A stretch of 64,000 nt of DNA from an uncultured Tateyamaria sp. (GTDB taxonomy: Bacteria > Pseudomonadota > Alphaproteobacteria > Rhodobacterales > Rhodobacteraceae): the NCBI RefSeq assembly GCF_947503465.1, contig NZ_CANNDN010000001.1, forward strand, positions 868,001 through 932,000, written 5' to 3'. The first letter of the stretch is position 1. Each line of letters starts with the position of its first letter. Both the position numbers and the translations under genes were made by a program. Below are positions 37,395 through 38,301 of this stretch, piece by piece. A model generated the notes under the pieces. It was not told the DNA's origin, ran no database searches, and saw nothing but the letters and a program-made list of their open reading frames with translations.

Positions 37395-37408
37395 TGAACG
37401 CTTGTTCA
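37395..37408. promoter_or_regulatory. Palindromic operator candidate upstream of the leucine operon
   Basis: Perfect inverted repeat TGAAC-GCTT-GTTCA, 30-43 bases before the liuA ATG, in a locally AT-rich stretch. The size and spacing fit a TetR-family operator. No regulator gene adjoins it here. In other proteobacteria liu genes are controlled by LiuR (MerR family) or LiuQ (TetR family); I cannot tell whether this site matches either. Confidence 0.5.
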
Positions 37409-37465: not shown

Positions 37466-38194
37466 TCAGTGGTTCATGAATTCCCGCAGGCTGACCACCC
37501 CGTCGCCATCTGCATCCAGGAACGCGACAATCTCGGGCGCGCGCGCCGCACTTTGCATGCCGATCGCGGCGCGGCATTCGGCGTGAATCTTTGCTTCGTC
37601 GATCCTGTAGGCGGCGGCCAGCTCGTCCTCGGTGACAAACCCGTCGCCGTCCGTATCGGCTTCGACGAACTCCTTGGCGCGTTTGCGATCATGGGCGGCA
37701 ACAAATTCATTAAGTGTCGCGACACCATCATCATTGCCGTCATAGAATTCCATGTGACCATCCGCCAGCATCTGCGGCGTGGCCTGCCACCTGATTTCCC
37801 ATTCCGTGCCTTTGCAGACCGCCGGCACATCGGCCTTGGCAATACGTTGCGCCATGTCGACAATCAGTTCATCGCGGTCGATCACGCCATTTCTGTCCGC
37901 GTCCTTGGCCCGGAACAGGCCTTTGAAGTCGGTTTTTGTATCGGCCTCGGCGCCCGCGAGGGATGCTGCGACAAGAACAGCAGCGGTGATGGCAGCCGGA
38001 ACGCCGGCAATCAGGGTTTTTCGCCACATGGGAACCTCTTTCGACAAGAGTTGAGGCACGGCATCTTCCGCAATCAACCGGCGCAGGGCGGCGCTCATTG
38101 ATTCTCCGCGCGCTGCTGCCCGCGCGGCAAACGCCGTCTTTTCCGAATGGCTGACCCGAATTTCGAGCGTTTCAGATTTCTTTTCAGAGCGCAT
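37466..38194 (-). CDS. Ribbon-helix-helix / transmembrane / four EF-hand fusion protein
   Basis: 242 aa. Residues 8-45 look like a ribbon-helix-helix DNA-binding domain (ETLEIRVSHSEKTAFAARAA, then GESMSAALRRLIAED). Residues 59-82 are one hydrophobic segment after Arg58-Lys59, ending AGAEA. The rest carries four EF-hand loops at about 98-109 (DADRNGVIDRDE), 152-163 (DGNDDGVATLNE), 180-191 (DTDGDGFVTEDE) and 227-238 (DADGDGVVSLRE), so likely calcium-binding. An internal ATG at 38029 (MWRKTLIAG) has AAAGAGG just upstream and would give a secreted EF-hand protein without the RHH part. Either both forms are made or one reading is wrong. It ends about 100 bases before liuA. Confidence 0.8.
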   Translation of the reverse strand: MRSEKKSETLEIRVSHSEKTAFAARAAARGESMSAALRRLIAEDAVPQLLSKEVPMWRKTLIAGVPAAITAAVLVAASLAGAEADTKTDFKGLFRAKDADRNGVIDRDELIVDMAQRIAKADVPAVCKGTEWEIRWQATPQMLADGHMEFYDGNDDGVATLNEFVAAHDRKRAKEFVEADTDGDGFVTEDELAAAYRIDEAKIHAECRAAIGMQSAARAPEIVAFLDADGDGVVSLREFMNH

Positions 38195-38287
38195 GGTCGA
38201 TGGATTGCTTGGATGTCGTGCTGCCTGTCACAGGCCACATGTTGTGCCACAAATGCTAGCATCAGCCTGCCCGGACGCACGGTTTTT

Positions 38288-38301
38288 CGTGTCCCGACAC
38301 G
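38288..38301. promoter_or_regulatory. CGTGTC-CC-GACACG palindrome upstream of the RHH/EF-hand gene
   Basis: A perfect 6-bp inverted repeat with a 2-base centre, 94-107 bases before the ATG of the RHH/EF-hand gene and just after the stop of the aminotransferase gene. A run of A lies on its minus-strand 3' side rather than T, so it is not a terminator for the minus-strand genes. An operator, possibly for the RHH protein itself, is one reading; evidence is weak. The remaining ~130 bases hold no other clear signal. Confidence 0.28.

Follow-up and report, generated by a model that had tools for sequence, protein, structure and literature searches.

Gene and Domain Architecture

The minus strand of the window (the whole 64,000-nucleotide stretch of DNA that was analyzed) carries an ATG-initiated open reading frame of 242 codons plus a stop, the product of which combines (i) an N-terminal ribbon-helix-helix (RHH) domain, (ii) a hydrophobic helix and (iii) four EF hands (Table 1). 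The original prediction of an RHH, a membrane segment and four EF hands in one chain is confirmed by the open reading frame, the Pfam EF-hand matches, the structural models and the relatives, and the layout is thus real.

Table 1. Features of the gene, its upstream region and related loci (positions are those of the window unless a locus is named).
Feature	Position	Strand	Basis
RHH, hydrophobic helix and four EF hands, 242 aa	37466..38194	-	ORF, Pfam, alignment, AlphaFold
RHH domain, residues 1-48	38051..38194	-	alignments, AlphaFold, Foldseek, dN/dS
Predicted ribbon, approximately residues 8-14; helices 16-28 and 33-44	in RHH domain 38051..38194	-	
Hydrophobic helix, residues 65-82, low model confidence; A-E-A at 82-84 after the helix	37949..38002	-	
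EF loop 1, residues 98-109	37868..37903	-	Pfam and translation
EF loop 2, residues 152-163	37706..37741	-	Pfam and translation
EF loop 3, residues 180-191	37622..37657	-	Pfam and translation
EF loop 4, residues 227-238	37481..37516	-	Pfam and translation
Internal ribosome site AAAGAGG (38041-38035) and Met56 ATG (38029-38027)	38027..38041	-	
-10-like TAGCAT, putative promoter element	38253..38258	-	read by eye
Candidate operator site II, CGTCCGGGCA, 22 bp center to center from site I	38268..38277	-	read by eye
Candidate operator site I, CGTGTCGGGACACGAAA, palindrome 38301-38288	38285..38301	-	
TGTCATGACA, site form to set against a T9K protein			
Additional signal peptidase I gene, preceded by an operator-like site and convergent with a short gene for an RHH, a helix and EF hands	L179-L181, L208-L210, L212-L215		
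Neighbor genes with an operator-like site in front	L216:2492-3586, L217:662-1690		

The EF-hand portion matches EF-hand_1 of Pfam over the cut-off (E = 1.7e-15), its four loops are canonical and 12 residues long, and the same model is matched at E 0.01 by 23 of 24 family members. AlphaFold places the EF domain (approximately residues 90-241) at a block pLDDT of 80-97 and the membrane helix at a low-confidence 46-57, with a disordered linker between the RHH helices and the hydrophobic helix. NCBIfam returned sub-cut-off matches alone for this protein. Two cysteines, Cys127 and Cys207 (37814-37816 and 37574-37576, minus strand), are invariant in 12 of 12 aligned relatives and may form a periplasmic disulfide.

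The RHH assignment draws on profile and structural comparison. The window protein is matched by NikA-like (E = 8e-4, 19.9 bits) and RHH_1 (E = 0.03, 14.7 bits) of Pfam, under the curated cut-offs of 27 and 20.5 bits, respectively, and a relative (L137) clears the RHH_1 cut-off at 22.7 bits. Helices at residues 16-28 and 33-44 are present in the whole-protein AlphaFold model, built with 24 aligned homologs, and at 16-28 and 33-51 when residues 1-52 are modeled alone. No strand is assigned in either of these single-chain models; the strand of an RHH forms only in the dimer. Foldseek of the whole model returned solely calmodulin-like proteins among the 50 matches listed, and the RHH part was therefore modeled apart. 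With residues 1-52 as the query, the top of the list is mostly RHH proteins (AtaR, DinJ, ParD, Arc, the PutA RHH, AmrZ, VapB12 and FitA), but at E-values of 0.45 and above. The two helices in place, together with these mostly RHH matches, fit a strand-helix-helix fold.

A rival identity for the RHH is an antitoxin or a NikA-type mobilization protein; NikA-like is the best single RHH-type Pfam match, reached by 16 of 24 members at E 0.01, and a sequence comparison with the PDB puts antitoxins first. This identity is nevertheless very improbable, given a NikA-like score below its cut-off, an RHH joined to a helix and EF hands, and conserved neighbors that by eye resemble an aminotransferase and an acyl-CoA dehydrogenase.

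Conservation and Distribution

Relatives with the whole layout in one chain, which the original prediction had called for, occur in 9 of 20 genomes of the same genus, the source genome included, and in wider relatives; the gene is patchy, being absent from the other 11 genus genomes. Across 149 genomes of the same taxonomic family, 50 have a match, which starts by residue 4 in four (again counting the source genome) and covers mainly the EF part in the other 46. Contig records hold 18 loci, seven of them in Tateyamaria and the rest in Ruegeria, Pelagimonas, Nitratireductor, Kordiimonas, Hyphobacterium, Maricaulis, Algimonas and metagenome bins; thus, the relatives are spread across the Alphaproteobacteria. 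The module is single-copy in the source genome at E 0.01, and a search of a plasmid collection gave no match.

With the RHH part as the query, matches are found in 30 of 398 genomes of the phylum at E 1e-5, in 5 of 385 of the class at 1e-9, and the module is present in 68 of 200 genomes of another order (that of G826). In the phylum search, those read among the 13 places at 2.5e-14 or better consist of an RHH and a hydrophobic helix, and the seven weaker places read are without such a helix (best 19-residue mean of 0.84 or less). All 31 open reading frames read, four of which repeat proteins already counted, continue into a hydrophobic stretch with a 19-residue mean of at least 1.35.

The RHH is the slowest-evolving part of the protein. 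Among the nine genus sequences and Ruegeria (n = 10), the RHH has a dN of 0.072 and a dN/dS of 0.095, while the EF part has a dN of 0.251 with saturated dS; in a 24-row alignment, seven of the eight invariant columns fall in the RHH. A gene that truly starts at Met56, with residues 1-55 as a chance open frame, would account for the lack of a ribosome site at the first ATG in 8 of 9 genus sequences, but is practically negligible as an explanation in view of the RHH dN/dS and the conservation of the domain over many families. Homologs starting consistently at the internal Met, or an unconserved N-terminus, had been named as outcomes that would speak against the prediction; instead, 12 close and 24 wider aligned relatives start before the RHH and keep it, and residues 1-55 include a domain under the constraint given above.

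The outer domains of the family are mostly EF hands. That of L096 is a TonB_C domain by Pfam, and no EF pattern is found in the outer parts of L128, L134, L136, L137, L140, L143 and L147. Tandem second RHH-helix genes are seen at L086:7005-7682 and L087:4934-5872, the first of which has a non-EF outer domain.

Candidate Operator

Most family genes have a palindrome resembling TGTCCGGACACGAAA some 100 bp upstream, with the form TGTCnnGACACGAAA and often with a weaker second copy 21-22 bp on. When the regions upstream of the gene in the genus (nine sequences) and in Ruegeria are aligned, TGTCCGGACACGA is found in nine and TGTCGGGACACGA in the window. An exact TGTCnnGACA occurs within 350 bp upstream in 33 of 53 members. 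A matrix made from the sites of the same set, and applied by leave-one-out with the ten genus and Ruegeria rows omitted together, outscores all 60 shuffles in 47 of the 53, the exceptions being L084, L131, L142, L145, L146 and L149. The weaker copy at 21-22 bp is seen in many members and appears at the 50% level in the consensus of 48 aligned sites.

Genomes that carry the module have the strict motif TGTCCGGACACGAWW in 31 of 80 cases, and genomes without the module in 2 of 80; the 49 module-bearing genomes that are missing it include the source genome, which has GG at the center. The search returned 32 places, two of which are both strands of one palindrome, leaving 31 distinct sites, and by comparison of coordinates all 31 adjoin a family gene. 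These sites lie (i) 90-153 bp before the RHH match of the family gene in 27 cases and (ii) before a neighbor in four, namely three signal peptidase genes (G964, G1004 and G1049) and one other neighbor in Kordiimonas (G842). The two copies in genomes without the module are at L176:1501 and L177:1501, where no RHH gene was recognized among the downstream frames examined. Thus, the palindrome at 38288-38301, flagged earlier for comparison with other upstream palindromes, has related sites upstream of the relatives and is, by sequence comparison, the strongest candidate operator. The palindrome goes with the family gene.

In the source genome, the 14-bp site has one exact copy, at its own gene. 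A wider regulon there is unsupported because this exact site is single and near sites are not in excess (140 two-mismatch matches on both strands versus 214 for the reversed control). The window also holds a one-mismatch copy of the operator, CGTGCCCGGACACG, at 1683-1696. A palindrome of a different motif, TGAACAAGCGTTCA, lies at 37395-37408 between the gene and the acyl-CoA dehydrogenase gene, and parts of it are visible beside some genus relatives.

One residue of the predicted ribbon, T9 in the window protein, tracks the operator center. A comparison of 72 rows, 68 of them with an operator call (two Lys and two Thr rows were left out, and the neighbor's operator was entered by hand for five rows of the neighbor type), gives AT at the operator center in 9 of 11 proteins with Lys after K-[KR]-[ST]-E and in 0 of 57 with other residues. 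The Lys exceptions are L134, the second site of which has AT, and L151. In the tree analysis, a tie rule placed L150 (Lys) among the non-AT rows, while direct reading gives AT. Only three independent pairs, one of them on well-supported branches, are available on the tree, too few for a usable phylogenetic test; the link is strong as a pattern in the sequences but is not independent of descent.

Candidate Internal Translation Start

The original prediction of an internal start with a better ribosome site agrees with the calculated energies in the window gene, which are -7.0 kcal/mol for Met56 versus +0.3 kcal/mol for the first ATG, and such a start recurs among relatives. Translation from Met56 would give a 187-aa EF protein that lacks the RHH and has a signal-peptide-like beginning. 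Other internal Met codons of the window gene score similarly (Met142 at -7.0, Met33 and Met148 at -6.6); Met56 is thus singled out by conservation over the relatives and not by its energy in the window. Five bases before Met56, the genus members have AAGGAGG in six of nine and a GAGG-type site in three of nine, and Ruegeria has a TTG with AAGGAGG near the equivalent of Met56. Codon 53 is GAG in 10 of 10 sequences of the genus and Ruegeria, which use GAA for Glu at codons 4, 8 and 11 in 29 of 30 cases.

An in-frame ATG preceded by a ribosome site lies between the RHH and the helix in 22 of 38 non-redundant members versus 4.8 expected from codon shuffles, and frames +1 and +2 have one each. This count uses a threshold of -5 kcal/mol or below that was picked after earlier energy data had been seen; at -6 the count is 18 of 38 versus 2.6 expected, and at -7 it is 11 versus 1.3. 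By type, the internal start is present in 35 of 48 members that are not of the neighbor type (every row outside the neighbor list, whether or not its own operator is strong) and in 0 of 12 that are. It is not universal, as 13 of the 48 (L046, L047, L078, L088, L127-L130, L137, L140 and L146-L148) have no internal ATG with a ribosome site, although L078 has a TTG with a strong one. The contrast between the types is as expected if the internal start makes a regulated product apart from the regulator, albeit over few lineages and not independently of descent; four independent pairs on the tree, two of them on well-supported branches, are too few for a usable phylogenetic test.

Neighboring Genes and Signal Peptidase

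All ten module-bearing genomes of family f63 have a signal peptidase I gene, its product over the Pfam cut-off, that converges with a short gene of the RHH-helix-EF type, and the Pfam match of the peptidase is preceded by an operator-like site. For L208 and L181 the site falls inside the longest possible peptidase frame, and so the true start of the peptidase matters. Two f181 genomes (L216 and L217) have the site before a convergent neighbor gene; it is weaker in L217 (12.4 bits), and the RHH protein of L216 is that of Kordiimonas sediminis L084. No Pfam family is over the cut-off for either neighbor product and no NCBIfam match was found for that of L216, which holds an HExxH motif.

The link to signal peptidase makes a monitor of protein export the main rival reading, one that is unlikely but to be taken seriously. 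The hydrophobic helix would be a cleavable signal peptide, and the full-length protein a precursor for export with a DNA-binding domain as its cap. Whether the RHH is tethered or freed would depend on export and on cleavage by signal peptidase, perhaps followed by intramembrane proteolysis, such that the operator would read out export or processing capacity and calcium binding would be a property of the cargo. In addition to the pairing described above, each of the ten f63 genomes has two full-length signal peptidases versus one in five of seven others (the source genome included), and Ala84 is conserved across at least 90% of the 24 aligned rows. Against it, G820 and G826, the other two of those seven genomes outside f63, likewise have multiple Peptidase_S26 matches (three and two, respectively), and no signal peptidase or operator was seen at the second RHH place of G1064 (L211). 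A-x-A-like motifs follow the helix core in 51 of 60 proteins, with none in nine, versus 44.0 expected from shuffled alanine-rich windows; this count is near the shuffle level and therefore gives no evidence of cleavage. Cleavage of a signal peptide as a proven feature was thus rejected. If the precursor's export and its processing by signal peptidase did set the free or tethered RHH that reaches the operator, a prospect of the same low order, the family would consist of transcriptional export monitors, to which the window member adds a calcium binder produced independently by way of an internal start. The f63 device would then control an extra signal peptidase, with the enzyme's own substrate reporting on the enzyme.

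Simpler, and somewhat less likely again than export monitoring, is plain autoregulation, in which the RHH represses its own gene and the membrane link just disposes of the repressor with no outside signal. The single exact operator of the source genome, at the gene itself, fits this account, whereas the joining of the RHH and outer domain in one chain over deep divergence and the operator at a neighbor in f63 and f181 genomes do not.

Proposed Mechanism

The favored reading, which we consider rather probable, is that the gene encodes an autoregulatory, membrane-tethered, one-component RHH regulator and also yields an exported calcium binder without the RHH. The RHH would be cytoplasmic and the EF domain periplasmic. 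Bound as dimers to the tandem operator, the RHH may control the promoter of its own gene, where repression is somewhat likelier than activation because site II would overlap the -35 region. Calcium binding in the periplasm, perhaps by pairing the EF hands of two chains, would alter the RHH dimer or its access to DNA, while the bulk output would come from the internal start as an exported calcium-binding protein. The gene would thereby adjust calcium binding in the periplasm to demand. The same regulator may, in some relatives, be wired instead to a neighbor such as the extra signal peptidase I.

Of the calcium-to-DNA signaling device originally predicted, the one-chain layout, the recurrent internal start and, by sequence comparison, the palindrome have stood; we infer the calcium control, the topology and the sign of regulation, with the EF loops as the one pointer to calcium dependence. 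A calcium-only reading of the family is weakened by the members with TonB_C or other outer domains, and since some outer domains are non-EF, calcium is not the sole possible input. With positions assigned to the operator, the specificity residue and the internal start, each step is directly testable.

Comparison with Known Systems

Periplasmic EF-hand proteins with ties to gene control are described from other bacteria. EfhP of Pseudomonas aeruginosa senses calcium in the periplasm with its EF hands and is linked to gene control (PMC9132961; PMC11559002); it has two EF hands versus the four found here, and the term 'DNA-binding' is absent from the available main text of PMC9132961. CaBP of Caulobacter vibrioides, an alphaproteobacterial periplasmic EF-hand protein tied to transcription, has 133 residues, a signal peptide and three EF hands, and its link to SigV is called unresolved in PMC13171946, the available text of which has neither 'ribbon' nor 'CopG'. 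Two further papers (PMC5847659 and PMC11237479) deal, in their available portions, with other proteins, and searches of open-licence PMC papers turned up no description of such a family.

The relatives, together with the DNA site that they share, point to a new family of gene switches tethered to the membrane. If true, an unrelated DNA-binding fold is added to the class of membrane-integrated regulators, bacterial EF hands gain a direct route to DNA, and a single gene makes both a regulator and its exported output. Arc, AmrZ, the PutA N-domain, FitA and DinJ resemble residues 1-52 in fold, at weak E-values, and likewise have a palindromic site. No RHH regulator or antitoxin is known to be joined to a membrane helix and EF hands.

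In its predicted layout, as far as the available descriptions go, the window protein is similar to the ToxR/CadC-type regulators, which join a DNA-binding domain, a membrane helix and an outer sensor in one chain. The ToxR/CadC-type regulators use a winged helix-turn-helix. Such an N-domain was not found in the window protein by Pfam or Foldseek, which gave RHH-type matches instead. Thus, the window protein differs from the ToxR/CadC type in the fold of its DNA-binding domain, a predicted RHH, and in an internal start from which the outer domain would be made on its own.
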